From Niallia sp. Man26 (lineage in GTDB: Bacteria; Bacillota; Bacilli; Bacillales; Cytobacillaceae), in the NCBI RefSeq assembly GCF_022049065.2, contig NZ_CP095746.1, forward strand, positions 168,151 to 232,150: a stretch of 64,000 bases of DNA, given 5' to 3'. A program made the position numbers and the translations under genes. The notes beneath the pieces were generated by a model, which was not told the origin of the DNA, made no database searches, and saw only the letters and a list, made by a program, of their open reading frames with translations. Numbering within the stretch: position 1 is the stretch's first letter; each line of letters starts with the position of its first letter. Shown one piece after another: positions 1 through 26,388 of this stretch.

Positions 1-1556
1 GAAAATCAATCAGCAGTTTAATGGATATTCGACCAGACTTTGCCAATCTTCAAGTTGGATTAGATGTCAAAAAAGTATCACCCGAAGATGTTGAAATTGG
101 CGATATTATTGTAATTAAACCTGGAGAAAAGGTTCCATTAGATGGTGTTATATTAGAAGGAACTTCGAGCGTTGACACATCTGCATTAACAGGGGAATCA
201 GTGCCACGTGATGTAACTGTGGGAAGTGATATATTAAGTGGTTTTATTAACAAAAATGGTCTTCTGACGGTAGAAGTAAAAAAAGAATTTGGAGAATCAA
301 CTGTTTCTAAAATTTTAGAATTAGTACAAAATGCTAGCAATAGAAAAGCTAAAACGGAGAACTTTATCACTAAATTCGCTCGTTACTATACACCAGTTGT
401 TGTAATTATTGCATTACTGTTAGCTATTGTTCCACCCTTACTTTTTAGTGGAGCTACCTTCTCAGACTGGGTATATAGAGCCCTTATCTTTTTAGTTATT
501 TCCTGTCCTTGTGCTTTAGTTGTTTCTATTCCTTTAGGCTTTTTCGGTGGAATTGGAGCAGCCTCTAAAAAAGGAATATTAGTAAAAGGTAGTAACTATT
601 TGGAAGCACTTAATGATGTTAAGTATGTCGTATTTGATAAAACAGGAACCCTTACAAAAGGTGTATTTGAAGTAGACTCGGTTTATCCTGTTAATGGATA
701 CTCAGAGGAAGAAATAATTAAGTTTGCTGCTTACGCTGAAACACACTCCAATCATCCAATTGCTGACTCAATTAGAAAGGCCTTTGGAGATAAGATAAAG
801 GAAGAATTAATTCAAGACTATAATGAAATAGCTGGTCATGGTATTTCTGTAGTAGTGGACGGAAAAGAAATACTAGCTGGAAACGATAAACTTATGCAAA
901 AAGAAAAGGTTGATTTTTACAGGAATAACGAAATTGGTACGATTGTTTATGTTGCATACGATAAACAATTCGTAGGTTCCATTGCAATTTCAGACCAAAT
1001 AAAAGCGGACTCCTATAGCGCGATACAAACACTAAAAAGAATAGGCATCAAGAAGACCGTTATGTTAACAGGGGATTCTAAAGTGGTTGGGAAAAGGGTA
1101 GGAGAACTGCTTGAAATAGATGAGGTTCATGCAGAGTTACTTCCTCAAAATAAAGTAGAAGAAATAGAGAAATTAGATGCTTCTAAGAATGCTAAAGACA
1201 AAATTTTGTTTGTTGGAGACGGTATTAATGATACTCCAGTATTAGCTAGAGCAGATGTAGGAATGGCTATGGGGGGGTTAGGTTCAGATGCAGCAATTGA
1301 AGCGGCTGATATTGTTATTATGACAGATGAACCTTCTAAAATAGCCACGGCAATCTCACTTGCTAAGCGGACTAGACGTATTGTATGGCAAAACATTATT
1401 TTCGCATTAGGAGTAAAGGCAATCTTTCTATTGTTAGGGGCTTTTGGTATTGCAACAATGTGGGAAGCCGTATTTTCTGATGTAGGAGTTACACTTATCG
1501 CAGTATTGAATGCTATGAGAATACTAAAAGTAACAAATGACGATCCTTTTTCTTAA
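1..1556 (+). CDS. cadA: CadA-like heavy-metal P1B-type ATPase, 5' end outside window
   Basis: An ATP-driven inner-membrane exporter of Cd/Zn/Co-type cations. The reading frame is open from the first bases and enters the conserved run before MDIRPDFANL, so the ATG at 21 is internal and the N-terminal metal-binding domain and first membrane helices lie upstream. Visible in order: TGES actuator loop, CPC in the metal-binding helix, DKTGT phosphorylation site, HP motif in NHPIADS, and GDGIND hinge. The CPCALVVSIPLGFFGGIG stretch differs from the second ATPase here (CPCALVISTPVAIVSAIG) and resembles chromosomal CadA/YvgW-type pumps from memory. It ends with two C-terminal helices and a strong terminator. 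Metal specificity cannot be settled without the missing end. Confidence 0.9.
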   Translation, partial: KSISSLMDIRPDFANLQVGLDVKKVSPEDVEIGDIIVIKPGEKVPLDGVILEGTSSVDTSALTGESVPRDVTVGSDILSGFINKNGLLTVEVKKEFGESTVSKILELVQNASNRKAKTENFITKFARYYTPVVVIIALLLAIVPPLLFSGATFSDWVYRALIFLVISCPCALVVSIPLGFFGGIGAASKKGILVKGSNYLEALNDVKYVVFDKTGTLTKGVFEVDSVYPVNGYSEEEIIKFAAYAETHSNHPIADSIRKAFGDKIKEELIQDYNEIAGHGISVVVDGKEILAGNDKLMQKEKVDFYRNNEIGTIVYVAYDKQFVGSIAISDQIKADSYSAIQTLKRIGIKKTVMLTGDSKVVGKRVGELLEIDEVHAELLPQNKVEEIEKLDASKNAKDKILFVGDGINDTPVLARADVGMAMGGLGSDAAIEAADIVIMTDEPSKIATAISLAKRTRRIVWQNIIFALGVKAIFLLLGAFGIATMWEAVFSDVGVTLIAVLNAMRILKVTNDDPFS

Positions 1557-1571
1557 TCCTAATAATTAGCT

Positions 1572-1622
1572 AAAACAGCATCATTATTTAGTAACTAAGC
1601 TGATAATGATGCTGTTTTTTGC
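1572..1622 (+). terminator. Intrinsic terminator of the first cadA
   Basis: A 16-bp perfect stem (1572-1587 with 1603-1618) is followed directly by T residues, 15 nt after the stop codon. Confidence 0.9.
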
Positions 1623-1688
1623 AATTTACTTTTATGGATATATACTGATGTTGAATTTCACCTGTAAAATTAATTAGGAGAAGTCGAT

Positions 1689-2570
1689 ATGCAAAATATT
1701 GTTATTGTACTTGTGGGCTTAGTATTAATTACCTTAATAATCATTTTTATTTCAAAAAGTATTAGAACTATGATTCCTTCTTTAATTGCCTTTTATTTCT
1801 TAATCTTAATAAGCTTGTTTACTTATAATAGCAAGCAAGTGGAGTCTTTTTTACAAAAGGAAGTTGACATTACAAGCAGTGAAAAGAAGGAGGGAATAGA
1901 GAAAAAACCAGCACAGGAAATAAACAAAGAATGGAATGAAAAGGATGAAAATAGAGGAAAAGTCAAAAAAAACATAATTCTTGATGCACCTATAATTAAA
2001 CAATTTCCTGAACTACCAAGAGGATGTGAAGTAACTAGTTTAGCAATGTTTTTCCAATATTACGATATTAAGGTTAATAAAATGGACTTAGCTAAAAAAG
2101 TAAAAAAGGATAAAACTCCATTAACTAAGAGAAATGGAAAGATATTCTGGGGAAATCCAAATGATGGATTTATAGGTGATATGTATTCTTTTAATAATCC
2201 TGGGTATGGTGTATATCATAAACCTATTCTGGATTTAGCTGAAGAATATCTTCCAGGGAAAATAGTAAATTTGACCGGAAGTAATTTAGAGGACTTAAAA
2301 AGATATCTCTCTAATAATAGACCTATCTGGATTATAACAAATGCAAGCTATGATTATTTGCCGTCATCTTCATTTGAAAAATGGAATACTCCATCAGGCG
2401 AAATTAATATCACTTATAGATTACACTCTGTTTTAATAACAGGTTATGATGAAGCTAATATCTATTTCAATGATCCAATTGATGGTAAGAAAAATAAACA
2501 GGTACCTATACAACCATTTATAAAGGCTTGGGAACAAATGGGGAGTCAGGCAATTTCATTAAACTTATAA
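1689..2570 (+). CDS. Membrane-anchored C39-like (papain-fold) cysteine peptidase family protein
   Basis: A 293-residue protein. Two hydrophobic segments (about 5-22 and 29-45) precede a lysine/glutamate-rich linker (about 55-95) and a C39_2-type domain. The domain holds the catalytic-type cysteine in PRGCEVTS (Cys113), a histidine in RLHSVLITGYD (His246) and the following NDP. This matches the YvpB-like C39 family, usually outward-facing peptidases of Bacillota with unknown substrates. AGGAG lies 8 nt before the ATG. A weak 7-bp palindrome (2591-2597/2606-2612) follows the stop. It stands alone between cadA and copC, so no operon partner hints at a substrate. Family assignment is fairly safe; function is not. 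Confidence 0.75.
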   Translation: MQNIVIVLVGLVLITLIIIFISKSIRTMIPSLIAFYFLILISLFTYNSKQVESFLQKEVDITSSEKKEGIEKKPAQEINKEWNEKDENRGKVKKNIILDAPIIKQFPELPRGCEVTSLAMFFQYYDIKVNKMDLAKKVKKDKTPLTKRNGKIFWGNPNDGFIGDMYSFNNPGYGVYHKPILDLAEEYLPGKIVNLTGSNLEDLKRYLSNNRPIWIITNASYDYLPSSSFEKWNTPSGEINITYRLHSVLITGYDEANIYFNDPIDGKKNKQVPIQPFIKAWEQMGSQAISLNL

Positions 2571-2706
2571 TTGAAACATATACCTCAACAAGTATTAGTA
2601 TAAATTAATACTTATTCACTAAATTGTCACAATTATAATAATTAGAATCATGTTATCATTATAACGATGTTGTTAATATAATGACTAGAGAAAAAGAGGG
2701 GAAAAA

Positions 2707-3336
2707 ATGAAAAAGGGTTTGTATATATTTTTTATTAGTTTCTTTTTTGTATGGACAAATAATGCATTTGCTCATACTGGGTTGGAAAGTTCATCACCTG
2801 GGAATGAGGAGATAGTAAAGGAAGAATTGCAAAAAATCACACTAACATTTGAAACTAAAATTGAACAGGGAAGTACATTTACACTAATAAATTCGGAAAA
2901 CAAAGTGATACAAGTGCAAAATATTGAAAAAACGGATAACCAACTTATCGGGGAGTTTACTTCTCCATTAGAAAATGATAATTATGATATCCAATGGCAA
3001 ATTATTGGAGTAGATGGTCATATTATTGAGGGAGAGTTTACTTTTACAGTTGATGCTCCTGTGGGAGAAGAAGAGGATCAGTTGAAAGCCGAAACAGATG
3101 AGAAAGCAACAACACAACAAGATGCTAAAGAAGAAGAAACAACTAAAGATGACACGAAAAAGGATACAGAGGAAATAGATCATTCAACTATGTCTCCAGA
3201 GGAACATGCTGCATATGAGAAAGCAAATTCCGATCCTTCTACTGTATTAATTCCTGCAATTTTAATATTAGTAGGGATAATAGTAATTATTATAGTTGCA
3301 GCATATATAGTAACAAGGAAAAATAAATCGGTATAA
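2707..3336 (+). CDS. copC: CopC-domain copper-binding protein, membrane-tethered
   Basis: A 209-residue exported protein. A signal peptide ends at NAFA, so cleavage would expose His23 as the new N-terminus, the His brace used by CopC for Cu(II). Asp103 and His105 in VDGHIIEGEF supply the other expected ligands. A beta-sandwich CopC domain (about 23-115) is followed by an acidic, charged linker with an HSTMSPEEH stretch and a C-terminal helix (about 184-203). The stop overlaps the copD start (TAATG), so the pair is translationally coupled. GAGGGG precedes the ATG. Likely role: extracytoplasmic copper capture and hand-over to CopD. Confidence 0.85.
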   Translation: MKKGLYIFFISFFFVWTNNAFAHTGLESSSPGNEEIVKEELQKITLTFETKIEQGSTFTLINSENKVIQVQNIEKTDNQLIGEFTSPLENDNYDIQWQIIGVDGHIIEGEFTFTVDAPVGEEEDQLKAETDEKATTQQDAKEEETTKDDTKKDTEEIDHSTMSPEEHAAYEKANSDPSTVLIPAILILVGIIVIIIVAAYIVTRKNKSV

Positions 3337-4424
3337 TGTTTATCATAATCACAGTTACTCAAGCTTTATTATATATTTGCTACTCAATTATTATGGGAAG
3401 CTTTCTTTTGAATCTTGTCCCTAATAACTATAAGCCATTAATATATTTGCCTAGAAAAATATTACTAATCTCTCTTGGGGGAATAGTAATATTTTCATTT
3501 ATTCCGGTATTACCACTTATCTTGCATCTTAATTCACTACTTGGATTTACTGACGCGGTAAATTCAGTTCTGCTTACATTTCAAATCGGAAAGTCTTGGT
3601 TATTCACTTTTGTTGTTTCTCTAACATTTGTTCCGTTTCTAGTTTTTTTTAACAACCGGAAAACAATACAAAACATTGTTGGTATTTTATTTACCTTAAT
3701 CTTAATTAGCGCAGTAGGTTGGTCAAGTCATGCGAGTTCATTGAATCCTGTTAAGGGATTTTTGAGTGATAGTACACATCTGACTGCTGTAAGTGTTTGG
3801 GTTGGTATCCTATTTATAATTAGTTGGTTTTCCAAAGATGAGTCAAATTGGTTGCCGTTTTTAAAATGGTTTACACCAGTAGCTATTTCTTGCTTAGTTA
3901 TTACAGCAATTAGCGGTATTGTTCTAATGACATTTGATATCGACTTTAATAATTACTATAATTCCTGGATGATTCCATATGGTCAATCATTACTAATAAA
4001 GCATATTTTAATTATCCCTTTACTGGTGTATGCATTTATTAATGGTTTTTTTATTAAAAGAAGACTTAATAAAGAAGAAAACTTTAATCCTAAACCATGG
4101 GCTAGGATTGAAAGTATAATAATTTTATTTGTTTTTACAGCTACATCAGCATTAAGTCAACAATCTCCACCGAAAGAAACAGCCATAACAGAAGAGTCTG
4201 TATCACCAATCTTTAAAGTCTTCCATCAAGGGGAAGTTGAGTTAGGAGTAAACTTACAAGTAGGTATTAGCTTAATAAGTATTCTATTTTTATTGTTAAC
4301 CCTTGTATTTTTAATACTAACAGTTGTATTTTACTTTAAGAAAAAAAGTTCGTATTTGTCACTCGTTTTGGGAATTCTCTCTTTAGTAAGTATTTATTTA
4401 TCGTTAATGTATATTGTTTCATAA
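3336..4424 (+). CDS. copD: CopD-family copper transport membrane protein
   Basis: A 362-residue polytopic protein with about nine hydrophobic helices. It carries the CopD-type core with WSSHA (about residue 130) and HLTAVSVWVGI, where the histidines are candidate copper ligands. Members of this family move copper across the membrane with CopC; direction (uptake or resistance) varies between organisms. It overlaps copC by one base and shares its promoter. In Bacillus the two domains are often fused (YcnJ); here they are separate. Ends at a strong terminator. Confidence 0.8.
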   Translation: MFIIITVTQALLYICYSIIMGSFLLNLVPNNYKPLIYLPRKILLISLGGIVIFSFIPVLPLILHLNSLLGFTDAVNSVLLTFQIGKSWLFTFVVSLTFVPFLVFFNNRKTIQNIVGILFTLILISAVGWSSHASSLNPVKGFLSDSTHLTAVSVWVGILFIISWFSKDESNWLPFLKWFTPVAISCLVITAISGIVLMTFDIDFNNYYNSWMIPYGQSLLIKHILIIPLLVYAFINGFFIKRRLNKEENFNPKPWARIESIIILFVFTATSALSQQSPPKETAITEESVSPIFKVFHQGEVELGVNLQVGISLISILFLLLTLVFLILTVVFYFKKKSSYLSLVLGILSLVSIYLSLMYIVS

Positions 4425-4435
4425 AATAAAGTGTG

Positions 4436-4467
4436 GTCTGGAGATAGAGACATCTCCAGACTTTTTT
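4436..4467 (+). terminator. Intrinsic terminator of copCD
   Basis: A 9-bp stem GTCTGGAGA/TCTCCAGAC (4436-4444, 4453-4461) is followed by six T residues. Confidence 0.88.
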
Positions 4468-4521
4468 AATTGGCTAGTTTTATTTAAGAATTTATTTCTC
4501 ACATTAAAAAACAGTAATTTA

Positions 4522-4584
4522 TTGACACACATATTAGTAAAAGTTAATATGATGGCATTAGACATATTAGAAACAACTAATACG
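4522..4584 (+). promoter_or_regulatory. Sigma-A promoter with two palindromic ArsR-family operators
   Basis: TTGACA (4522-4527), 17-nt spacer, TAATAT (4545-4550). The -10 sits in the right half of palindrome CATATTA-N8-TAATATG (4530-4551). A second, imperfect copy CATATTAG-N6-CTAATACG (4563-4584) lies over the start region. Both repeat the same half-site, consistent with autoregulation by the adjacent CmtR-like repressor. Confidence 0.8.
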
Positions 4585-4595
4585 AGGGGGTAATT

Positions 4596-4916
4596 ATGCA
4601 AAATAGCACTTTGGATATGAAGGTCAAACTAATTCATGGTTTTTCGAATAAAACTCGAATTCAGATTCTAGAATGTCTGAAAAATGAGGAGAAAACTGTA
4701 TCACAAATTGTCGAGCAGATAAAAGGAAATCAATCGAATATTTCTCAACATTTAGCCTGTTTAAAGGGTTGTGGCATTATCGTTGGAAGAAATGAAGGCA
4801 AATATTGCTTTTATAGTCTGAGAAACCAATATATTCGTGATTTATTAGATATGTTTGATGTAGTTCTAAATGATGTTCAGAATGACGTTATTTGTTGTGA
4901 AAATCATATGGAGTGA
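4596..4916 (+). CDS. cmtR: ArsR/SmtB-family metal sensor of CmtR type (Cd/Pb responsive)
   Basis: A 106-residue winged-helix repressor. Its cysteines match CmtR of Mycobacterium: Cys55 and Cys59 in the recognition-helix motif HLACLKGCG, and Cys100/Cys101 near the C-terminus, where CmtR uses Cys57, Cys61 and Cys102 for Cd(II)/Pb(II). The N-terminal CxC of CadC/ArsR is absent. GAGGGGG precedes the ATG. It is followed 11 bp later by the CC-rich CadA, so metal binding should release both genes from the twin palindromes upstream. Ligand assignment rests on motif spacing. Confidence 0.82.
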   Translation: MQNSTLDMKVKLIHGFSNKTRIQILECLKNEEKTVSQIVEQIKGNQSNISQHLACLKGCGIIVGRNEGKYCFYSLRNQYIRDLLDMFDVVLNDVQNDVICCENHME

Positions 4917-4927
4917 GGTGAATAATA

Positions 4928-7693
4928 GTGCCTGAAAAATGCTGTAGTTCAAACAATGAAAATAAAGATAATAAACTAGTTACCACAACAAATTGTTGTT
5001 CTAACGAAACGAAAATTACAGAAGAAAGTTCTGAAGTGATTTTAGTTGAAAGCAACTGTTGCAGTAATTCCAAAGAGACAGACGAAAGTACATGTTGCAG
5101 TTCAAGTTCCTCGAAAGAAGAAATGAAAGAAATAAGCTCAAGTTGCTGTTCGACCAATAAAAAGCAACCATCGAATACATCTGAGCTATTTAATGTGATA
5201 CCGGTGGCAAGTAGCTGCTGTAACAGTACTAAAGAGCCGGAGAAGGACTCATGTTGCAGTAAGGAGTCAGCTGAAAAAGTAAGTGATTGCTGTGCTTCTC
5301 AAGTTAGTAAGTCTGAAGAAAAGGCTAGCTCTTGTTGTAGTACTACAATTGAAGTCGAAGAAAATATAATGGAAACTAATGCTGGAGAAAGGCAAGATTT
5401 CCTTATTACTGGGATGGATTGCCCTGCTTGTGCCAAGACCATTGAAAAAGGATTAGGATCATTACCAGGTATCGAGACAGTAAAAGTAAACTATAGTACG
5501 GCAAAAATGCAAGTACACGCAGCTAATTCTTCTTCATTCATTTCTATTGAAAAGGAAATAAAGAAACTTGGATATTCGGCTGAAGTGCTGCAACAAAACA
5601 AAAATTTACGAACTTATGATATCGTGGGAATGGACTGTGGCAGCTGTGCAAAAAGTATTGAAAACCACTTTCAAAAAAACCCTTCCGTTAAAGAAGTAAG
5701 TGTTAATTTCTCTACAGGAAAAATGAAAATAGAACATACCAATAGTGTAGACGAAATAATCTCAGAAGTAGGTAAAATTGGGTACAGTGCTAGTTTGAAA
5801 TTAAATAAGAAATCATCGGTGGAACAACCGAAAAGTAAAAAAGAAAACTGGATTATTATTTCTTCAGGTCTTCTTATAGTCATAGGTTTTTTACTATCTT
5901 ATATATCTGTTCCGATGATTGTATCCACTATTTTATATGCTGGTGCTATCGTAATTAGTGGGTATAAACCAGTGAAAAGTGCCTTTTATGCCATTAAGAG
6001 CCGATCCCTTGATATGAACGTGCTAATGTCTGCGGCCGCAATTGGAGCTGCTTTAATTGGAGAATGGTTGGAAGGTGCCACAGTAGTATGGTTGTTCGCC
6101 ATCGGAAATTACCTGCAAACAAAGTCCATTGAAAGAACTAGAAATTCTATTCGAAGTTTAATGGATTTATCTCCATCGGAGGCTTGGGTTAAGATTGGAA
6201 ATGACTTAATCAAAAAGCCAGTTGAGGAGATTTCAGTTGGTACTACTATCGTGGTAAAACCTGGTGACCGAATTGCTTTGGATGGCGATGTTGTTCAAGG
6301 TGAATCCAGTGTAAACCAAGCACCTATAACAGGAGAATCTATACCAGTAGATAAAGCTATAGGTGATTCTGTATACGCTGGTACAATAAATGAACATGGT
6401 TTATTAGAAATAAAAGTAACGAAGTTGGTAGAAGATACTACTATCTCTAAAATCATTCATTTAGTAGAAGAAGCACAAGAACAAAAAGCACCAACAGAAG
6501 CATTTGTGGACAAATTTGCAAGTATCTACACACCTATCGTATTTATAGCTGCTTTGGCAGTTATTGTTATTCCTCCATTGATAGGATTGGGAACATGGGG
6601 AGAATGGTTCTATAAAGGGCTTGAGTTATTAGTGGTTGCTTGTCCATGTGCGCTAGTTATCTCCACTCCTGTTGCGATTGTGTCTGCTATCGGCAATGCT
6701 GCTAGAAATGGTGTCCTAATAAAAGGTGGAACTTTCTTAGAAGCTGCTGGGGCCATCAATGCAATTGCTTTTGATAAAACGGGTACGCTGACAGAAGGGA
6801 AACCAAAAGTATCAGACATTAAAACCTTTAATGGTTCTGAAGAAGAATTGCTATCCATAGCTCTTACTTTGGAAGAATATTCTACTCATCCTATTGCTAA
6901 AGCAATTGTAGATCATGTAAGAGAACTAGGGAAGCCAGCTAAAGATGGAGCAGAATACAAAAACATTGTAGGAAAAGGTGTGCAAGCTACCATCACTGGA
7001 GAAATATACTATGCAGGAAACCTGAAACTGTTTAAAGAAATGAGTATCCCATTAGGTACGGTTGAAGCGTATGTAAATGAAGTGCAAAATAATGGGAAGA
7101 CAGTAGTTATCATAGGGACAAAAACCGATATTCTGGGAGTTATTTCGGTTGCTGATACTATACGTGAAAACTCTGCCGTTGCGCTAAAATCACTATTATC
7201 TAATGGTATCAAGCAAACGGTTATGTTAACAGGAGATAATGAAGGAACAGCTAAATTGATTGCTTCTAAGGCGAATGTAAATCGATATTTTGCTAATTTA
7301 CTTCCAGAAGATAAAGTCGATGCGGTAAAGAAATTGCAAGAAGAAGGATACAAAGTAGCAATGGTTGGTGACGGAATAAATGATGCGCCAGCATTGGCAA
7401 CGGCTGATTTAGGAATCGCAATGGGTGGGGCTGGTACAGATACTGCCATGGAAACAGCAGATATTGTGTTAATGGCAGATAATTTAGAGAAACTGCCACA
7501 TACCATTAAATTAAGTAAAAAAGCTTTAAGCATTATAAAGCAAAACATTTGGTTCTCTATCCTCATAAAAGTTATTGCTTTAGTATTGATTTTCCCAGGG
7601 TGGTTAACACTTTGGATGGCAGTATTAAGTGATACAGGAGCAGCTTTAATCGTTATTTTAAATGCATTACGGTTATTGCGAATAAAAGGTTAA
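4928..7693 (+). CDS. cadA: Cd/Zn/Pb-exporting P1B-type ATPase with nine-CC N-terminal extension
   Basis: A 921-residue pump starting at GTG (GAGGTG upstream). Residues 1-150 are low-complexity, Ser/Glu/Lys-rich and carry nine vicinal cysteine pairs (5-6, 23-24, 44-45, 56-57, 73-74, 97-98, 109-110, 121-122, 136-137). Two HMA domains follow: GMDCPAC (Cys165/168) and GMDCGSC (Cys237/240). The core has about eight helices, TGES, CPCALVIS, DKTGT, HPIAKA and GDGINDAP. CPC plus HMA repeats and a CmtR-type repressor favour Cd/Zn/Pb over copper. Usual CadA is about 700-800 residues, so the extension accounts for the excess. A strong terminator follows. Confidence 0.9.
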   Translation: MPEKCCSSNNENKDNKLVTTTNCCSNETKITEESSEVILVESNCCSNSKETDESTCCSSSSSKEEMKEISSSCCSTNKKQPSNTSELFNVIPVASSCCNSTKEPEKDSCCSKESAEKVSDCCASQVSKSEEKASSCCSTTIEVEENIMETNAGERQDFLITGMDCPACAKTIEKGLGSLPGIETVKVNYSTAKMQVHAANSSSFISIEKEIKKLGYSAEVLQQNKNLRTYDIVGMDCGSCAKSIENHFQKNPSVKEVSVNFSTGKMKIEHTNSVDEIISEVGKIGYSASLKLNKKSSVEQPKSKKENWIIISSGLLIVIGFLLSYISVPMIVSTILYAGAIVISGYKPVKSAFYAIKSRSLDMNVLMSAAAIGAALIGEWLEGATVVWLFAIGNYLQTKSIERTRNSIRSLMDLSPSEAWVKIGNDLIKKPVEEISVGTTIVVKPGDRIALDGDVVQGESSVNQAPITGESIPVDKAIGDSVYAGTINEHGLLEIKVTKLVEDTTISKIIHLVEEAQEQKAPTEAFVDKFASIYTPIVFIAALAVIVIPPLIGLGTWGEWFYKGLELLVVACPCALVISTPVAIVSAIGNAARNGVLIKGGTFLEAAGAINAIAFDKTGTLTEGKPKVSDIKTFNGSEEELLSIALTLEEYSTHPIAKAIVDHVRELGKPAKDGAEYKNIVGKGVQATITGEIYYAGNLKLFKEMSIPLGTVEAYVNEVQNNGKTVVIIGTKTDILGVISVADTIRENSAVALKSLLSNGIKQTVMLTGDNEGTAKLIASKANVNRYFANLLPEDKVDAVKKLQEEGYKVAMVGDGINDAPALATADLGIAMGGAGTDTAMETADIVLMADNLEKLPHTIKLSKKALSIIKQNIWFSILIKVIALVLIFPGWLTLWMAVLSDTGAALIVILNALRLLRIKG

Positions 7694-7694
7694 A

Positions 7695-7733
7695 AAAACC
7701 GAGATGTCTAACTAATGACATCTCGGTTTTTAT
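7695..7733 (+). terminator. Intrinsic terminator of the cmtR-cadA operon
   Basis: A 14-bp perfect stem AAAACCGAGATGTC (7695-7708) with its complement (7717-7730), then T-rich sequence. Confidence 0.92.
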
Positions 7734-7832
7734 ATTATTCTGACGGTATAATTTGGTTATCTATATGGGTGACTTTCACAGATTTTCAGATTAGCAAGTG
7801 CTCTTTGAAGGTTATATATTTAAATGACTAAC

Positions 7833-7946
7833 GTGGCAGCATTCCTATATTAACTGAAAATGAGATTTGAAAGAAAAAAGACCTCTTGATAAGATAAATG
7901 TGTCCTGAGCCCGCCAGCTAAAAGGGACAAAAAATCTACTCGGAGG
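7833..7946 (+). repeat. Solo left end of an IS110-family element
   Basis: This stretch is nearly identical to 39633-39744, the left end of the truncated IS110-family element, including GGCAGCATTCCT, TGAAAGAAAAAAGACCTC and GATAAGATAAATGTGTCC. The match ends at CTCGGAGG, the likely ribosome site of the transposase. No transposase follows, so this is a deletion remnant or a solo end. Confidence 0.8.
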
Positions 7947-8013
7947 CTCATCATTCAAATAAATTTGTGAATAATTACACTTCTTTAGTTTAAGAATTAT
8001 AGGGCGTAGAGAA

Positions 8014-8043
8014 CAAAAAAACAAGGGACTAGTAAGTCCCTTG
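8014..8043 (-). terminator. Intrinsic terminator of the 8051-8749 gene
   Basis: CAAGGGACT (8022-8030) pairs with AGTCCCTTG (8035-8043). On the minus strand the stem is followed by seven T residues. Confidence 0.85.
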
Positions 8044-8050
8044 CATATTA

Positions 8051-8749
8051 TTAATCATTATATGAATAATGTACAGTGAAAGTTGGATCTAATCTATATT
8101 CAAAAGAAACAACATTTTTATTTGTAGCAGGAATAGAAGTAATGTATTCTTGCAGTTCAGCATTATGTTCATCAATACCCTTAGTCAAGTTAGCATCAAC
8201 TACAGCTCCAGTAGGAAGCACTACTACTAGTTCGACTCTACCTCCACTTGGATCTAACTGTAATCCTGAAAACGGAAGCTGTGTTACAAATTCATAGTGG
8301 TTTGGTTGACCAGGAATTTCATAGATATTATGTTCATAATTAACTTCGTAGACAAAATGACCTTCTTTGGATTGTCCAGGTAATTTTGTGAGCTCAGTTC
8401 GATTCATGATAGAAACAAGAATGTTTTTATTTGCATCGTCTAATACTTCTCGAAGATTTCCAGCAATTGCTTGTTCTTGTATATCTTCAGTGCTTTCAAG
8501 GATATCTGCCTTAAGTGGAATCATTGGCAGCTGGAATACTTCACCTTTTGATTCTGCATCTTTACGAAGAAATTCTAAAACATGTGGTGGAACAGTAGAT
8601 CCAGAAGGAATATACCAGAATTGACCTTCGGAAATTGGTTCAACTGTTTCAAGAAGAGTTTGAACCTTAACCCGGTCTGATTTACCTCCATTATAACGGG
8701 ATAATCTTTGAATTGTTGCTGTCATTTCTTGCAAGTAAATAATATTCAT
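8051..8749 (-). CDS. Conserved hypothetical protein, unrecognised
   Basis: I do not recognise this 232-residue, soluble-looking protein. The longest frame starts at 8794, but GGAGG at 8758-8762 lies 8 nt before the ATG at 8749 (MNIIYLQEM), which I take as the start. There is no signal peptide, membrane segment or clear catalytic motif. Composition is mixed, with proline-containing stretches (YIPSGSTVPPHVLEFL) and a beta-rich C-terminal half (RVELVVVLPTGAVVDANL). It has its own terminator and is transcribed alone, away from the ImmA-PIN pair. Codon use looks normal, so it is probably an intact gene. Confidence 0.7.
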   Translation of the reverse strand: MNIIYLQEMTATIQRLSRYNGGKSDRVKVQTLLETVEPISEGQFWYIPSGSTVPPHVLEFLRKDAESKGEVFQLPMIPLKADILESTEDIQEQAIAGNLREVLDDANKNILVSIMNRTELTKLPGQSKEGHFVYEVNYEHNIYEIPGQPNHYEFVTQLPFSGLQLDPSGGRVELVVVLPTGAVVDANLTKGIDEHNAELQEYITSIPATNKNVVSFEYRLDPTFTVHYSYND

Positions 8750-8884
8750 TATTTTTGCCTCCAATAGTTTTGTTAGATGGAGGTATTCCCGCATTAAGAC
8801 CTATTTGATTAATTCTCCTTCCTTACCGAATCAAAAGATAAGTCTATATTCCTTATATATTCATTTCTAATAAGACAAATTACA

Positions 8885-9044
8885 TTGCCTTTCTAGAAAT
8901 TTTCTTATATAATGTATTGGATTGAAATTAATATGGAACGTAGACAAACCTATTATCTGATATTGCAGTATCAGTTTTGATTGGTTTTATTGGTCTATGC
9001 GAAAAAACAACTATCTACAATTATTAATATAGTTGTTTTTTTTT
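8885..9044 (+). ncRNA. Candidate small RNA between orphan promoter and terminator
   Basis: TTGCCT (8885-8890), 17-nt spacer, TATAAT (8908-8913) forms a good promoter. About 90 nt downstream lies a strong hairpin terminator (9002-9044). The expected transcript (about 8920-9044) contains a small palindrome CTGATA-N6-TATCAG (8957-8974) but no open frame over about 13 codons with a plausible start. An sRNA or a decayed type I toxin locus would both fit. No expression evidence. Confidence 0.3.
9002..9044 (+). terminator. Strong hairpin terminator upstream of immA
   Basis: AAAAAACAACTAT (9002-9014) pairs with ATAGTTGTTTTTT (9029-9041) with flanking T/A tracts, so it could act in both directions. 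No protein gene on the plus strand ends just before it. Confidence 0.8.
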
Positions 9045-9151
9045 ATATGGTCAAGCAAAAAAGAAACTTTTCTTTACACTCAATGTATAATATAATCTGT
9101 TTAGGGTAAATTATTTTTAACATTCAAGTTAAATTAAGAGGAGGTGTGTAG

Positions 9152-10309
9152 ATGGAAAACATTGCAAAGGTGATTGGACAAAACATAGAAAGATTAAAGC
9201 AATCTAAAGGATTAACTAATGAGGACATCGGTAACATTATTGGGGTGACTAGAGTTACGATTGCTAAATATTTATCTGGGGATCAGGTAATCGATAGTGC
9301 AAGACTATTCAGATTAGCTACTAAGTTTAACTTACCATTTAAATGGTTTTTAGAATCTGATGAGGATTCATCCATGTCCTTTATGTTTAGAGCAGATAAT
9401 CCTCAAGAAAACTTTGAAGATGATTTAGCCCTTTCTCTTAACAATTTTCTAAATGAATACATCCGAATCTTAGAGTTGGCTGGAGAAAATAATGTAGCTT
9501 TTTTACCTCAAGCATATAAGTTACATTTAAAAGAAAATAAACTTACTGATGATGATCTTGAAATTATAAGAGAAATAGCTGAAAAACAAAGAATGGCATT
9601 TGGAGTAGAAGAAATTCTTGATTACGATATTTACTCAATTTTAGAAAAAAATAATATAAATGTTTTAGCTTTACAGTTAGATAACGAAAAAATATTTGGA
9701 TTATCTGCCTATTCAGAAGATAAGGGTGCCTTTATTATAATAAATGATAGCCCTAATATTCCTGAGGAAAGAAAGATATTTAGTGTCATACATGAACTTG
9801 GGCATCTGATATTTCATCGAGAGGATTATGATAGAGAACCAGGAGAGTTAACTTATAGTAAAACGCGTAATAATATTAATGAAAAAATTGTTGATAAATT
9901 TGCGGGTTATTTCTTGATTCCTAGACATAAATTAAGAGGTTATAAAAGACTGTTTAGAGGTTTTATATCTAACTTTAATAGTGTTTTTGAAGTGAAAAAG
10001 GAATTCGGTGTAAGTGCAAAATCATTATTAATGGCATTAAAAGAGGAAGGTTATATAGAGCAAAAAACATTTGGTGCCCTATTTAACAAACTCAAAAATT
10101 CAGGATTTGACCATAAAGAGCCTCAACCAATAGAACCAATAGAAAAAAATAAGAAGTTAAAATCCATTCTTCGTAGATTGTACTTGGAGGATAAGGTGAC
10201 TACAAATAAGGTTGCCGAGTTGTTATCATTAAATGACAAGGAGGCACGCCTGCTCGTTAAAGCATGGGCTGAAGAAGAGGACTATGGAGATCAATACACA
10301 GAAGATTAA
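9152..10309 (+). CDS. XRE-ImmA/IrrE family protein (HTH plus zinc metallopeptidase)
   Basis: A 385-residue protein. The N-terminus (about 5-60) is an XRE-type helix-turn-helix. A central ImmA/IrrE metallopeptidase domain carries HELGH (His214, Glu215, His218) with a downstream FAGYFLIP motif typical of the family. The C-terminal 60 residues (DKVTTNKVAELLSLNDKEA) look like a second HTH. GAGGAGG precedes the ATG. The stop lies inside the start of the next gene, a PIN-domain protein. In COG2856 families such proteins act as antitoxin-repressors or as proteases that cleave repressors. The overlap supports the antitoxin-repressor reading, which remains inference. Confidence 0.82.
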   Translation: MENIAKVIGQNIERLKQSKGLTNEDIGNIIGVTRVTIAKYLSGDQVIDSARLFRLATKFNLPFKWFLESDEDSSMSFMFRADNPQENFEDDLALSLNNFLNEYIRILELAGENNVAFLPQAYKLHLKENKLTDDDLEIIREIAEKQRMAFGVEEILDYDIYSILEKNNINVLALQLDNEKIFGLSAYSEDKGAFIIINDSPNIPEERKIFSVIHELGHLIFHREDYDREPGELTYSKTRNNINEKIVDKFAGYFLIPRHKLRGYKRLFRGFISNFNSVFEVKKEFGVSAKSLLMALKEEGYIEQKTFGALFNKLKNSGFDHKEPQPIEPIEKNKKLKSILRRLYLEDKVTTNKVAELLSLNDKEARLLVKAWAEEEDYGDQYTED

Positions 10310-10823
10310 AAATCTTATGGGAAAAGTAGGAGTGCTGGATAATAACATTCTGAATGATTTTACAGAGCTTCAATGTATATCCTTAATTAATCAAGTATTT
10401 GTAAAAGTCTATATACCACAAAGTATTTTAGAACGTGAGGCTATTCTCGAAACTATTCAATCGAATATTGAATGGTTAGAATATCAACCAACTGCCATAG
10501 AAAAGGTTGAATCGTACGAGTTTTTGAGTAAAATTTTAAAGGACAAGCCTGCTCTTTCTGACTATGATGCAGAATGTATCGCAATTGCAAGGGAAAAGAT
10601 GATCTACTGCACATCAAATGAAAAAAGAGTTATAAGTATCTGTAACGAATATAATGTTGAATGTACAGGAACCATTGGAATATTATGTTGTGCATTTGAA
10701 CATGGTATCATTAGTAAAGGTAAGTTTGAAGGTTTAATAAAAAAGTTATTTTCCCCTGAGTGTTCTTCTTACTTGGGCAAAAAAGTCAAAAAAGCTGTTT
10801 TTTCTTACTATAATATTGAATAG
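10284..10823 (+). CDS. PIN-domain ribonuclease-like protein, probable toxin partner
   Basis: About 179 residues if the ATG at 10284 is used; GAAGAGG lies just upstream and the frame overlaps the end of the ImmA gene by 26 nt. An alternative ATG is at 10317, right before the domain. PIN features: first acidic residue in VLDNNILNDF, acidic cluster in SDYDAECIAIA, and CTSNEKRVISI followed by GTIGILCCAFEHGII. PIN proteins are usually Mg-dependent RNases. Paired with an HTH-metallopeptidase gene, a toxin-antitoxin role is the simplest reading. A terminator closes the pair. Confidence 0.72.
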   Translation: MEINTQKIKNLMGKVGVLDNNILNDFTELQCISLINQVFVKVYIPQSILEREAILETIQSNIEWLEYQPTAIEKVESYEFLSKILKDKPALSDYDAECIAIAREKMIYCTSNEKRVISICNEYNVECTGTIGILCCAFEHGIISKGKFEGLIKKLFSPECSSYLGKKVKKAVFSYYNIE

Positions 10824-10833
10824 TACTATACAC

Positions 10834-10879
10834 TAAGGCACCCTAAGTTGAGTCAAAGTATGATACTTAAGGTGCTTTT
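10834..10879 (+). terminator. Terminator of the ImmA-PIN pair
   Basis: AAGGCACCCTAAGT (10834-10847) pairs with ACTTAAGGTGCTTTT (10864-10878) with one mismatch, followed by T-rich sequence. Confidence 0.75.
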
Positions 10880-10890
10880 ATATTTCTACT

Positions 10891-11058
10891 ATGGATTATG
10901 TAGAGATGTTAAATATTTTTAGTAGCTTTGGATATATAGATTTTATTTTTTTAGTATTTGTTTCATTTGCATTTTTATCACAAATAATCTTTTTAGGGAA
11001 TCGAAGATTAGAACTAGTACAAGAGTTATTTTCGCAATGTATAGAAGAAAAGAAATGA
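10891..11058 (+). CDS. Possible 55-residue single-pass membrane peptide
   Basis: The ATG opens a 55-codon frame encoding MDYVEMLNIFSSFGYIDFIF, a strongly hydrophobic centre, then a charged tail ending CIEEKK. The shape is typical of small membrane proteins. It lacks a convincing ribosome site and starts just past the PIN terminator, so it may be a remnant. An imperfect hairpin with a T-tract (about 11079-11113) follows it. Confidence 0.35.
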   Translation: MDYVEMLNIFSSFGYIDFIFLVFVSFAFLSQIIFLGNRRLELVQELFSQCIEEKK

Positions 11059-11544
11059 AAGTTTATAAAAAAAGTAGAAGCATTTAATATTATAGAAGAT
11101 GTTTCTTTTTTTGTATGAGTCGTAACTTAAAAGAATTGACACCAAAACAACGGACTGTCAATTTAGGAGTTATTTTTCATTTAGTTTAGGCGTTAAATTG
11201 CACTGAAAAATCTTTTATATTGCTATATGTTGTTAAACGATCGCCCCTGTTTCTTTAAGTGCATTTTTTCACAAACTCAGCCTTTTTGAGTTAATTATTA
11301 CAGGAATAATGCCATGTTTATGACACAAGCGTTTCTTCTATAAGGAATTCTACTCTCTTAGTGCAAGAGAAAATGCGATACCTCCTAAAATATCGCACAT
11401 TCATTTCATAATAGTGTTACCTCTTAATTCCTGTAATTAAATAGTAAATACCAAATAGATAAAGTATGCCACTTATAAATAATAGTATGATTCTAATTTC
11501 TTTAATAGCTGTTCCATACACATCTACATTATTTCCATATCTAA
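11059..11544. other. Intergenic, no gene seen; contains a dispersed 39-nt repeat
   Basis: Apart from the weak hairpin near 11079-11113 and the repeat at 11243-11281, I see no coding or structured feature. The sequence looks like decayed coding material. Confidence 0.5.
11243..11281. repeat. Dispersed 39-nt repeat, copy 1
   Basis: GTTTCTTTAAGTGCATTTTT and its flanks match 56954-56992 at 34 of 39 positions. Both copies lie between genes. Origin unknown; possibly the shared edge of a lost mobile element. Confidence 0.6.
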
Positions 11545-12105
11545 CTTCTATATCAATAAATGGATTATTTAAACATCCTATTTGGGAGCGTTATAACCAC
11601 TTAAAAGCTTACAAAAGTGATAGCTGTCCTATTTCACGTAAAAATATAGAAGAATTCGACCGAAAATTATTTCATGTAATTGATGACTATTACAGTAAGG
11701 ATATCAGAGAAATTGCAATTAGCTGCCCTGGTGCTGTTGATACAAAAAAAGGAATTATATATAACGGTGGATCCTTTCCTTTTCAGCACAATGTGAATCT
11801 AAAGAAAAAGTTAGCTGATCATTACAATATTGACGTAGCAATAGAAAATGATGGAAGATGCGCAGCCTTAGCGGAGCTATGGCTAGGTAGCATTAAAGGT
11901 AAACAGGACGCTGTTGTACTTGTATTGGGGAGTGGCGTAGGTGGTGGGATTATTCTGAACGGCAAGATACGTCACGGGGGTAATTTACTCTCTGGAGAAT
12001 TAAGTTTTGTCATGTCTGGTATGAGTAAGGAGACAAACGAAGCCACTTTTGTAGGTTTTGAAGGATCTGCAGTAGAATTTCTAGTTGAAATATACCTTTT
12101 CCCCA
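11545..12105 (+). pseudogene. ROK-family sugar kinase, N-terminal two thirds (broken)
   Basis: The frame encodes a recognisable ROK kinase core: ISCPGAVDTKKGIIYNGG, then IENDGRCAALAELWLGS (catalytic-type Asp in ENDG), then VLVLGSGVGGGIILNGKI, the nucleotide-binding glycine-rich loop. The true N-terminus (DxGGT motif) is missing, replaced by unrelated sequence before about 11545. The frame derails near 12100, before the C-terminal zinc-binding and helical part. That missing part is found immediately downstream on the opposite strand. No ribosome site fits a start, so this is a relic. Confidence 0.8.
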
Positions 12106-12123
12106 ACCAAAATATAATCTTTA

Positions 12124-12330
12124 ATTATATGCTGTAACCCGACCTTCTAATCTATCATTCTCTGTTAACAAATGATATAAAGCACCATATAAATTAGCGT
12201 TATTTTGATAATGACAGCATACGATATTTGGCTTTGCTATATGCATTGTATTTGCTTTCTTCAATTCTTCAACCGCCCATTTTATCCGTTCAATTAGTAT
12301 TGGTTGAGCACTTATACCCATATCTATTTT
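12124..12330 (-). pseudogene. ROK-family kinase C-terminus, inverted relative to its N-terminal part
   Basis: Read on the minus strand, this encodes GISAQPILIERIKWAVEE, then KPNIVCCHYQNNANLYGA and LYHLL, the usual C-terminal end of ROK kinases such as BglK. It abuts the N-terminal ROK part (11545-12105), which lies on the plus strand. The natural reading is one kinase gene whose 3' part was inverted. It is not expressible as a kinase. Confidence 0.75.
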
Positions 12331-12506
12331 TAAAGATACTAATTGAGAAACAAAAGATAATGGATATGGCTAAACTATTTTTATCGGTACAAGAGATTAA
12401 GGAAAATCTATTTTTCCAGAAAGTGCAAAAATATTTGCTAATCAATCGGAATTCTGATAAGTAAGTAAGTTTTCAAATTAGAACTATACTTCTAGATGAT
12501 AAAGCT

Positions 12507-12538
12507 AAAGTCCTGATATTTTCTCAGGGCTTTTTTTA
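12507..12538 (+). terminator. Intrinsic terminator
   Basis: AGTCCTGA (12509-12516) pairs with TCAGGGCT (12524-12531), one G-T pair, followed by a seven-T run. No intact gene remains upstream; it probably belonged to the ROK locus. Confidence 0.75.
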
Positions 12539-12927
12539 TTTCATAAAGTATAGTCCTCCATGCATAAATAAACAAATAAAAAGGATAAACCCAAAAACTA
12601 TTGTTTATCCTTTGCTAGGTCATCTTCATAAAAAATACCAAATGCTACAGGAATTAAATATATATGATTATTTGGTGATTATTGTTTAAGGGAACTTACC
12701 TGGGCAGTTATTTTTACTATTTCAGAACTTTGAACAAGTTAGTAATGCCATTCATCCTTATTTATGATATTAACTTCATCTACGCAATTAAACCAAAAAT
12801 AGATAGAAGAGTTCTTAATTACACCAGTCCAATTTCTCTTCTCTTTTAGTCGAAGGGTTAAATACTGCTAAATCATATTAAATAAAAATTAAGGATAGCT
12901 TTTTGTATTAATGTGTAAATTTAAGTT
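12539..12927. other. Intergenic, no intact gene
   Basis: Only a short minus-strand open stretch (about 12776-12860, reading TGVIKNSSIYFWFNC) suggests a coding relic. I do not recognise it. Confidence 0.4.
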
Positions 12928-13266
12928 TTATTTTTCACTTATTTTAATAGTTATTTTTAGTCCAAGTTCTTCCCATTTATACTCCAGTATATGATGAGCT
13001 TCATCTTTACTTAGTTTGTCAAATTCATGAGCAAAACCAATTATAGAGTATAGTTGAGGGTAACGAGCTAATCGCTTTTCAATTCCTGGCATTCCAATTA
13101 ATATCATTGCTACGTTGTTTTGATCGTAAATATCCCTAAGTTGTTCTAAACTTTGCAGTTTTAATCGTTCAATTTCATCAACGATGATTAAATCGATATG
13201 CTTATAGGAATCTGAATAATATTCTTCTTCGCCCGTAGTATGTAGTTTATACATCGCCTTTACCAT
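12928..13266 (-). pseudogene. AAA ATPase fragment of TniB/TnsC-like transposition type
   Basis: 112 residues holding Walker B LIIVDEIERL, a sensor-1-like region MILIGMPGIEKRL and QLYSIIGFAHEFDKLS. This is the middle of the AAA ATPase that accompanies Mu/Tn7-like DDE transposases. The Walker A half and the C-terminal helical domain are both absent, and no transposase is next to it. It ends 50 bp from the arsB relic, so it may mark the edge of a lost transposon. Probably non-functional. Confidence 0.65.
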
Positions 13267-13316
13267 ATTTATTCTAAATCCTAAAGTATTATTCTAAATC
13301 TTGTACCTTTCACTTC

Positions 13317-13645
13317 ACCATTAATGGCGGAGCAATATTAGCGCTTCTTGTTGGTGTAGTTGATTTTAATGATCTCGTTGACGTAACAGGGATTGTACGG
13401 AATGCAACAATGGCATTTGTTGCATTCATTATTATTTCATTAATCTTAGATGAAATTGGATTTTTTGAATGGGCAGCTTTACATATGGCAGAAGCTAGAT
13501 GCTGGTGGTAACAGCTTGAAGATGTTTGTTTACGTTGCTATTCTAGGGGGCTATTGTTGCAGCGTTTTTCGCAAATGATGGGGCATAATTTAACACCAAT
13601 TGTTTTAGCGATGGTTAGAGCATTAAAGTTAGACAAGAAAATGAT
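13317..13645 (+). pseudogene. arsB fragment, degenerate
   Basis: This matches 44692-45020 of the intact arsB ([43 protein letters not shown]) at nucleotide level, with several small insertions and deletions that break the frame after HMAE. The match stops after the codons for ALKLDKKM. It is fused directly to a CoA-disulfide reductase fragment, so everything that lies between these genes in the intact operon (rest of arsB, arsD, arsA, hesB) is deleted. Confidence 0.85.
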
Positions 13646-14325
13646 TTACGGGTGGCTCTTTAGAACATAGAGGTATTTTAGACACAGGTATACTACGTGT
13701 ATTTGATTTAGCTGTTAGTCAAACAGGTATGAATGAGCTAGAAGCGTTAGAAGAAGGCTATGATATTGAAATACTTCATAATATTAAACCAGCTAGTTCA
13801 GAGTATTTGGGAGAAATTAATAGTTATTAAGGAAAAAATTGTAAGGGTTTTAGGTGTACAAATAGTAGTTGAAGAAGGAGTGGATAAAAGAATTGATGTC
13901 TTTTGTAACAGCTCTTACGTTTAAGGAAAAAGCAGAAGACTTATTCCATCTTGATCTTGCCTACTCACCACCATTCAGCACAACTAAAGATCCAGCTATG
14001 TATACTGGGATGGCTTTGCAAAAAGCTATTGATAAGAAAAATAAGCTAATTACACCCAAGAGGGAGAAGCCATTCAAGTTATTGATACACGTCCACCAAA
14101 ACAATATAATGTATCAAAAGTGGCGACTGCAATAAATATACCACTAGGCGAATTGCGTGGGAAATGTAAAGAACTTGATCCCAATTTTCCAACAGTAAAC
14201 TTACTGTAATGGTGGAGTGACTGGGAATACTGCACAAAAATGTTATACGTAACTTAGGGTTTAACTATATCTATAATCTTTCTGGTGGTAATAAGAATTA
14301 CGAAAATTATAAGAAGAATAAATAA
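13646..14325 (+). pseudogene. CoA-disulfide reductase-rhodanese fragment, degenerate
   Basis: This matches about 49362-50073 of the intact gene: LEHRGILDTGILRVFDLAV, then DVFVTALTFKEKAEDLFHL, then the rhodanese part ending SGGNKNYENYKKNK. Several frameshifts are visible (near 13810, 14060 and 14200). It holds only the last 40 percent of the protein. Together with the arsB fragment it is the scar of a second, older ars operon of the same type as the one at 44-50 kb. Confidence 0.85.
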
Positions 14326-18458: not shown

Positions 18459-18573
18459 AGTAGGGTTCCTCCTAAGGTTGAGTTTTAGAGTGGTTTCTAT
18501 ACTCATATCTTACTGAGGAGCCCTTTTTTTTTCAAAGTTGAAAAATAACGCTCTACAGGAATGCTAATCTAGA

Positions 18574-23805: not shown

Positions 23806-24033
23806 GTGAAAATCGACAAATTGTTAGATGCAAAAGGATTAGCATGTCCGATGCCAATTGTAAAAACAAAGAAGGCAATGACTGAACTTGAAACTGGTCA
23901 AATATTAGAAATTCATACAACAGATAAAGGGGCAATAAATGATCTTTCAGCCTGGTCTAAAACAGTAGGTCACGAATTATTGAGTCAAAAAGAAGAAAAT
24001 GGTGTATTGAAGTTTTGGATTAAAAAGGGATAA
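23806..24033 (+). CDS. tusA: TusA-family sulfur carrier 1
   Basis: 75 residues from a GTG start with AGGAAGGA upstream. The TusA hallmark is GLACPMPIVKTKKAM, in which the cysteine of CPxP carries the persulfide. Ends FWIKKG. Almost the same protein is encoded again at 27544, and a third copy is fused to rhodanese at 25357. Expected role: relay sulfane sulfur between rhodaneses, DsrE-like proteins and the dioxygenase. Confidence 0.92.
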   Translation: MKIDKLLDAKGLACPMPIVKTKKAMTELETGQILEIHTTDKGAINDLSAWSKTVGHELLSQKEENGVLKFWIKKG

Positions 24034-24045
24034 TTTTTTGCCATT

Positions 24046-24070
24046 TATAATACCCATGCGGGTATGGGTT
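24046..24070 (+). promoter_or_regulatory. CstR operator 3
   Basis: ATACCCATGCGGGTAT (24050-24065) is a perfect 16-nt palindrome overlapping a TATAAT (24046-24051), 29 nt before the DsrE-like gene. Confidence 0.8.
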
Positions 24071-24093
24071 AAATTAATACTGGAGGTAACAAT

Positions 24094-24573: not shown

Positions 24574-24616
24574 CTAGATAAAAGTAAAAGTTCTCTTGAT
24601 TAAAGGAGGTTTTAAT

Positions 24617-24979: not shown

Positions 24980-25006
24980 AATAAACAGAAGGAGAAGAAC
25001 TAACTA

Positions 25007-25303: not shown

Positions 25304-25321
25304 ATTTTTTTAAAACTAATA

Positions 25322-25337
25322 ATACCCTAACAGGTAT
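25322..25337 (+). promoter_or_regulatory. CstR operator 4
   Basis: ATACCCTAACAGGTAT, ATACC-N6-GGTAT form, lies 20 nt before the TusA-rhodanese fusion. Confidence 0.78.
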
Positions 25338-25356
25338 AAGTGATGGAGGCTGAAAA

Positions 25357-25932: not shown

Positions 25933-25950
25933 AAAATGGGGGAATTAACG

Positions 25951-26346: not shown

Positions 26347-26372
26347 AATTATATATTTTTTTAAATAAATTA

Positions 26373-26388
26373 ATACCATAGGGGGTAT
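26373..26388 (+). promoter_or_regulatory. CstR operator 5, overlapping the ribosome site of the dioxygenase
   Basis: ATACCATAGGGGGTAT. Its GGGGGT half is also the best ribosome-binding site for the GTG start at 26393. Confidence 0.75.

Follow-up and report, generated by a model that had tools for sequence, protein, structure and literature searches.

The window analyzed here is a stretch of 64,000 nucleotides of the Niallia sp. Man26 genome (contig NZ_CP095746.1, positions 168,151 to 232,150). It contains a compact two-gene operon encoding a predicted ArsR-family repressor and a heavy-metal-transporting ATPase, the features of which are summarized in Table 1. The pump gene is an uninterrupted frame of 921 codons, and the first 150 of these specify an N-terminal tail with nine vicinal cysteine pairs (CC dyads). 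All 18 cysteines of the tail are in dyads, on a background rich in Ser, Glu, Lys, Asn and Thr. An earlier note, made from the DNA sequence, had placed the pairs at residues 5, 23, 44, 56, 73, 97, 109, 121 and 136, and these positions are exact. It had given their spacing as 11-24 residues; the upper bound held, whereas the measured start-to-start distances (18, 21, 12, 17, 24, 12, 12 and 15) range from 12 to 24. In 100,000 shuffles of the tail the mean was 1.85 dyads and the maximum seven, so nine were never reached.

Table 1. Features of the dyad-tail pump operon and its borders (window coordinates).
Feature	Coordinates	Strand	Basis
Terminator-like hairpin after copC-copD-like genes; left cassette edge	4435..4462	+	hairpin, homology limit
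Promoter-like TTGACA-17-TAATAT and two palindromes, proposed repressor operators	4522..4584	+	conservation
ArsR-family CmtR-like repressor, 106 aa, Cys55/Cys59/Cys101	4596..4916	+	PF01022, NF033788, Cys columns
Ribosome-binding stretch ahead of GTG start	4910..4923	+	sequence, comparison with relatives
P1B-2 heavy-metal ATPase, 921 aa	4928..7693	+	TIGR01512, PF00122, PF00702, PF00403
N-terminal nine-dyad tail, residues 1-150, predicted disordered	4928..5377	+	dyad count, conservation, model
CC dyad 1, residues 5-6	4940..4945	+	sequence
CC dyad 2, residues 23-24	4994..4999	+	sequence
CC dyad 3, residues 44-45	5057..5062	+	sequence
CC dyad 4, residues 56-57	5093..5098	+	sequence
CC dyad 5, residues 73-74	5144..5149	+	sequence
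CC dyad 6, residues 97-98	5216..5221	+	sequence
CC dyad 7, residues 109-110	5252..5257	+	sequence
CC dyad 8, residues 121-122	5288..5293	+	sequence
CC dyad 9, residues 136-137	5333..5338	+	sequence
HMA domain 1, GMDCPAC, about residues 156-220	5393..5587	+	profile matches, model
HMA domain 2, GMDCGSC, residues 229-286	5612..5785	+	profile matches, model
CPC metal site, membrane part, residues 572-574	6641..6649	+	invariant in alignments
Terminator hairpin; right cassette edge	7694..7731	+	hairpin, homology limit

By sequence class the pump is a P1B-2 (Zn/Cd/Pb-type) ATPase. It scored 534.2 bits against TIGR01512, over the curated cut-off of 313.5, and matched PF00122 and PF00702 (P1B core) as well as PF00403, while its scores fell below the cut-offs of two ZntA equivalog models (588.5 versus 1240 for NF033775 and 660.8 versus 1005 for NF008262). 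The CPC and DKTGT motifs and the SDTG motif near the C-terminus, which we take to be a mark of P1B-2 membership, are invariant columns in alignments of 10 (A1) and 38 rows (A3). Profile matches also located the two HMA domains that the earlier note had described behind the tail. The best solved structures by sequence are a zinc ATPase (4umv, query residues 229-918) and a cadmium ATPase (7qbz, query residues 336-920); the tail lies outside both matches, and no Pfam match was found within it. In an AlphaFold model built from 38 sequences (mean predicted local distance difference test score, pLDDT, 57.3) the tail has neither helix nor strand, with pLDDT 23-30 per block of ten over residues 1-150, and the HMA region reaches 57-78. 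An earlier model from 10 sequences was poorer (mean pLDDT 47.4). The last helix of the pump spans residues 893-916 in the model, and the protein ends at 921. A protein search with the tail alone, as a possible stand-alone family, returned 66 candidates, all of them with E above 0.1, and a stand-alone metallothionein-like protein is ruled out by the fusion of the tail to the pump.

Relatives were collected by a locus scan with one genome per species, in which the best 80 of at least 307 confirmed relatives were kept. Dyad counts, start-site counts and parsimony refer to 79 of these loci, L089 having been dropped for want of a single open frame. Four dyads were found in 18 loci, two in 16, five in 15, three in 11, six in six, seven in five, one in four, nine in two and zero in two. 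The two zero counts (L116 and L118) are start artefacts in which an internal Met was chosen, and the longer frames hold three and one dyads, respectively. A clade of Bacillales carries the same kind of tail, with one to nine dyads, and nine is the top of the range. Genera with relatives include Niallia, Peribacillus, Oceanobacillus, Gracilibacillus, Rossellomorea, Ureibacillus, Sporosarcina, Salinicoccus, Paenibacillus and others; one strain of Oceanobacillus bengalensis has three copies with seven, six and three dyads (L045, L047 and L072). More than five CC pairs, for which the earlier note had proposed a database search, occur in 13 of the 79 loci. They also occur in 49 of the best 120 of 3,840 proteins (E up to 1e-100), two of which reach nine: P0001, with a tail equal to that of Niallia taxi (L040), and P0003 of Niallia circulans. 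Six proteins among these 120 lack dyads; they begin at MDC inside the first HMA domain (HMA1) and may be start-site calls.

Among 193 genomes of the same family, ten gave a match above 1,200 bits, and the next match scored 749. The raw open frames of the ten (L009-L018) hold three to nine dyads; when the likely start is used, the count is seven for L013 and three for L018, the latter without HMA1. No dyad was found ahead of DKTGT in the parsed frames of 20 weaker matches (L019-L038). The dyad-tail pumps group together against five other CadA-type rows in a quick FastTree tree (support 100). The tail as a trait of a few organisms was rejected: a tail search among proteins of pump length gave only three close relatives, and the alignment search and genome scan found many.

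In comparison with N. circulans (L012, the N-terminal sequence of which agrees with P0003) all 18 tail cysteines are kept, versus 62 of 124 other aligned tail residues (Fisher p 1.5e-5). Five silent changes at tail Cys codons indicate that the DNA there did change and that the cysteines were kept nonetheless. Reducing the 192 dyad-bearing tails of loci and proteins to a non-redundant set left 148, by construction free of dyad-less ones; 1302 of their 1384 cysteines are in dyads, where shuffling expects 222.6. The dyad context in these tails is S/D/T-S-CC-S-S, and the spacing has a median of 17 residues (quartiles 15 and 19). Tail length follows dyad number (r 0.91, about 16 aa per dyad) in 114 of the 120 proteins, the six without dyads being left out. 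Judging from these comparisons, the dyads are held by selection.

The ratio of nonsynonymous to synonymous substitution rates (dN/dS) of the tail is 0.38 versus N. taxi and 0.27 versus N. circulans, about five times that of the core (0.08 and 0.05, respectively). The tail thus evolves as coding sequence under selection, with a looser constraint than the core, and is very probably translated. The GTG start codon of the pump is preceded by GGAGTGAGGTGAAT. Among the 79 loci with a parsed frame, which include L039, identical to the window, a start codon stands exactly four residues ahead of the first dyad in 51 (36 ATG, 8 TTG and 7 GTG), and a purine-rich stretch lies upstream in 50 of these. A downstream start that would leave the tail out of the protein, a possibility raised in the earlier note, is contradicted both by the dN/dS ratios and by this conserved placement.

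Growth of the tail by duplication, another proposal of that note, is seen in a relative and is not visible in the tail of the window pump. The tail of L062 (Bacillus sp. OV166) contains an in-frame tandem array of a 54-bp unit (3.2 copies, 89% matching) with one dyad per unit, and P0105 and L042 have a similar array appearance at the protein level. Tandem Repeats Finder detected no tandem repeats in the tail DNA of the window, where only short two-copy matches are present; any duplication there would therefore be old. Between pairs of loci (duplicate genomes left out) the dyad number is the same in two of three pairs with a core identity of at least 95%, in three of eight at 90-95%, in 9 of 41 at 85-90% and in 35 of 189 at 80-85%. 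Two Fredinandcohnia onubensis strains carry five and two dyads (L059 and L075). Parsimony on dyad number, without duplicate genomes and with the longer frames of L116 and L118, required 43 changes over 79 rows, compared with 51.1 in shuffles (minimum 44). Dyad number is inherited but labile, since the changes are fewer than in shuffles, yet many.

The promoter-like sequence TTGACA-17-TAATAT is overlapped by a palindrome at 4530-4551, CATATTAG-N6-TTAATATG, and a second palindrome, CATATTAG-N6-CTAATACG, lies at 4563-4584; their general form is CATATTAG-N6-YTAATA. The case for the promoter rests on conservation, because the number of promoter-like matches in the region (13) is in line with that in shuffles (mean 12.0). 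When whole loci were searched, a loose form of the palindrome was found in 64 of 80, and in 43 it occurs twice, at a distance of 28-35 bp. Nine of the 16 loci that lack it encode a CadC-like regulator (ELCVCD) without a CmtR-like one. The two sites of the window are the only ones in its genome at no more than one mismatch. A wider regulon was considered and rejected on this ground, 19 two-mismatch matches being listed.

The repressor matches PF01022 (54.9 bits) and NF033788 (73 bits, above the cut-off of 55), and falls below the cut-off of the CmtR equivalog NF047906 (51.2 versus 150). The ligand set of CmtR consists of C-x3-C in the recognition helix and a C-terminal Cys, and mycobacterial CmtR has a Cys3 site for Cd and Pb. 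All three cysteines are present in the repressor (Cys55, Cys59 and Cys101), and every one of 67 CmtR-like regulator rows, the window included, shares them; the first two were demanded by the selection pattern and Cys101 is independent of it. By pattern, a CmtR-like regulator is present in 66 of the 80 loci, a CadC-like one only in nine, and neither in five. Together, the CmtR-like three-Cys repressor and the conserved double-palindrome operator point to Cd(II)/Pb(II).

By blastn, N. taxi L040 matches this region only across 4410-7729 (96.6%), if two weaker hits of another ATPase gene are set aside. This suggests that the cassette moves as a unit. Relatives on plasmids of Staphylococcus, Leclercia and Erwinia carry CmtR-like regulators and tails of the CC or C-x-D-x-CC kind; in Leclercia and Erwinia the tail lies partly upstream of the annotated start. 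The regulator type and the operator-like palindromes that these two (L127 and L128) have in common with the clade suggest a transfer of the cassette between phyla. One clade protein, P0055, is labelled Vibrio vulnificus by its source; the label probably stems from contamination or an error, as the rest of the named organisms listed with it are Bacillales or Bacillota.

The genome of the window encodes two other CadA-type pumps with His-rich stretches (19 and 20 His in the whole protein, which lacks CC), and the regulators next to them end in a His pattern. The first 113 residues of a third, unclassified pump-like frame contain five His and one Cys. Within this set the CC pump is the Cys-type member. 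The closest tested relative found is encoded by plasmid p25 of Rossellomorea marisflavi 151-25 (NZ_CP047096.1), where the pump at 26251-28752 corresponds to the printed orf4776 and the regulator lies at 28766-29092 (printed coordinates for orf4777, 28766-29110). This pair belongs to the same clade and shares the CmtR-like regulator and the double operator, and it differs in having three dyads instead of nine. According to Yu et al. (PMC6975044) orf4776-4777 were Cd-induced 23.6- and 26.1-fold; the term "N-terminal" is absent from the main text of that paper. A Cd-induced pair of R. vietnamensis 151-6 given there, orf4087-4088 (871 and 121 residues, separated by 12 bp according to its printed coordinates), may also belong to the clade.

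The earlier note was not aware of any ATPase described as having this many CC pairs. Plant pumps contradict this: in the C-terminal extension, AtHMA4 has 13 di-Cys motifs and AhHMA4 has 11, and AtHMA2 has six (PMC6255694). The AtHMA4 tail is reported to bind about 11 Zn with a KD below 10 nM and about four after replacement of all 13 dyads, and the pump with all dyads replaced gave only partial complementation in planta (PMC6255694). Like HMA4 and HMA2, the window pump is a P1B-2 pump of the Zn/Cd type with many dyads in a cytosolic extension, the cytosolic side being suggested here by the HMA domains. In AtHMA4, however, the extension is C-terminal, about 470 aa long and contains an 11-His stretch (PMC6255694), whereas the window tail is N-terminal, ahead of HMA1, and 150 aa long, with three His in the first 377 residues of the pump. 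Bacterial ZntA and CadA are set against the plant pumps in the same source as having no C-terminal extension (PMC6255694). We infer that the bacterial and plant dyad tails are of independent origin. A search of the open literature, with most subscription journals outside it, found no description of a bacterial N-terminal dyad array.

The tail is probably an antenna, a disordered array of dithiols in the cytosol that would buffer soft metal and supply the HMA domains with it. Its string of dithiol sites would catch a divalent metal of the soft kind (Cd(II), Pb(II) or both, and possibly Zn(II)), which would be passed to the two HMA domains and then to the CPC site of the efflux pump, and the tail would raise local capture and buffering capacity while a slow pump catches up. 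The CmtR-like repressor, with its likely three-Cys metal site, would switch the operon on. In such a scheme the dyad would be the unit of selection: linkers would drift, slippage would add or remove dyads, and capacity could so be tuned. The metal sponge or hand-over role of the earlier note remains the best reading, given the kept cysteines, the Cys-type repressor and an unstructured tail ahead of the HMA domains. From its proposed list of Pb(II), Cd(II) and As(III), the same evidence favors a soft metal, and As(III) is disfavored by the CPC core of P1B-2 type and by the ArsB and ArsA encoded in the window itself.

Several observations weigh against this interpretation. The disorder call is weak, because the AlphaFold model as a whole is weak. 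Only one or two dyads are present in 20 of the 79 loci, and a pump of this kind therefore does not require nine. Cloned with the native promoter, orf4776-4777 are described as giving neither E. coli nor B. subtilis a gain of Cd resistance, in contrast to another pump operon, 4802-4803 (PMC6975044). This counts against plain Cd export, unless the pump needs something that these hosts lack.

The main rival is that the tail does not supply metal to the pump but senses it, inhibiting the pump or setting it free (autoregulation or stability control). We consider it unlikely, although it has precedents: stepwise deletion of the AtHMA4 tail raised Zn/Cd tolerance in yeast (PMC10654040, PMC6255694), and yeast Pca1, a P1B Cd pump that likewise has a Cys-rich cytosolic N-terminus, differs in that this N-terminus is a Cd-masked degradation signal for the proteasome (PMC10654040, PMC6255694). 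Against it, the plant di-Cys motifs are reported to be needed for full function (PMC6255694). A copy number of one to nine would, moreover, suit a capacity better than a switch, and transcriptional control is already given by the repressor of the operon. Fast linker divergence, the five-fold higher dN/dS of the tail, dyad numbers that shift among close relatives and the 54-bp tandem unit of L062 could all be expected of functionless low-complexity sequence growing by slippage. This is nevertheless quite unlikely, as cysteines are kept much more often than the rest of the tail and remain in pairs throughout the clade, and the tail dN/dS is below 1.

Vicinal cysteines can also oxidise, and the dyads might serve as a redox buffer or switch via disulfides, tied to nearby Dsb genes: in tblastn searches with the genes of L130 over 85 loci, L130 included, DsbA-like matches were found in 24 loci and DsbB-like matches in 21. 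We hold this to be very unlikely, since Dsb proteins work on the outer side of the membrane, whereas the tail stands ahead of cytosolic HMA domains. In addition, neither DsbA nor DsbB is matched in L039, which is identical to the window over 13.7 kb, and the regulator is an ArsR protein of the metal type. As(III) too is bound by vicinal thiols, and the arsenic chaperone ArsD hands metalloid to a pump through vicinal Cys pairs; ArsD, however, is a separate small protein serving another pump, whereas the window tail is fused. That the tail traps As(III)/Sb(III) is very unlikely. An arsenic-resistance-annotated gene was matched in 6 of the 85 loci, the query's own included, and the window also holds an ars cluster at a distance of about 36-42 kb; yet the P1B-2 core with CPC is of the divalent-metal type, the regulator is CmtR-like, and that cluster already provides ArsB and ArsA, next to two ArsR-family genes.

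Within the antenna interpretation, the identity of the metal leads to a more specific proposal. E. coli ZntA is also a P1B-2 pump with a Cys-Cys motif near its HMA domain (CCCDGAC plus GXXCXXC), and differs in having a single motif instead of a series of dyads. C-x-D-x-CC motifs are present in several Paenibacillus relatives and in both enterobacterial ones. Earlier work cited in PMC10800456 found that ZntA lost Pb binding on removal of CCCDGAC. Pb has for this reason to be taken seriously as a candidate here, and the substrate of the pump is perhaps lead. The clade could be lead-directed or otherwise selective for soft metals, with the modular dithiol array of variable copy number, independent of the plant arrays, acting as a substrate filter and capacity dial; Cd induction would then be gratuitous and Cd not the main cargo. 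We regard this as a rather doubtful extension. If it were true, dyad number would be an adaptive, slippage-tuned trait.

Studies of plant di-Cys tails gave conflicting answers between yeast and plants (PMC6255694). The Bacillales operons constitute a natural bacterial series of one to nine dyads on otherwise similar pumps in a compact two-gene setting, in which it can be tested directly how the dose of dithiol sites affects capture, selectivity and pump rate. As an opposite-end counterpart to plant HMA4, they bear on the reason for the additional metal-binding tails of P1B pumps.

Directly upstream of the operon, the window contains CopC-like and CopD-like genes (2707-4424) that score below NCBIfam cut-offs; CopC and CopD matches were found in 15 of the 85 loci each, 14 besides L039. 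In 13 loci (L045, L047, L050, L054, L056, L059, L061, L068, L070, L072, L082, L086 and L098) match coordinates place a divergent DsbA-like gene at about 5.1-5.6 kb on the minus strand, within about 0.9 kb upstream of the pump start region. These genes are perhaps under the same operators as the pump operon. In B. vietnamensis, disulfide bond formation protein B and protein-disulfide isomerase are reported as Cd-induced about 9- to 13-fold (PMC6975044).

The arsenic cluster of the window (43642-50073) comprises two ArsR-family genes, ArsB (44608-45906), ArsA (46315-48099), a small CC-bearing protein (48102-48374) and a disulfide reductase with a rhodanese domain (48430-50073). A frame inside 45771-46298, read by eye from MCCSTGVCG, is presumably ArsD-like. 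The window forms the final 64 kb of a 232,150-base contig. Its first 13,690 bases (1-13690) are 100% identical to contig NZ_BQYJ01000007.1 of Niallia sp. NCCP-28, and a 2-kb piece (24000-26000) is 100% identical to a different contig of G173, by its coordinates that same genome, which may reflect the same species or a recent exchange. An IS110-type transposase is encoded at 17184-18506 and a PF00078 reverse transcriptase at 60015-61826.

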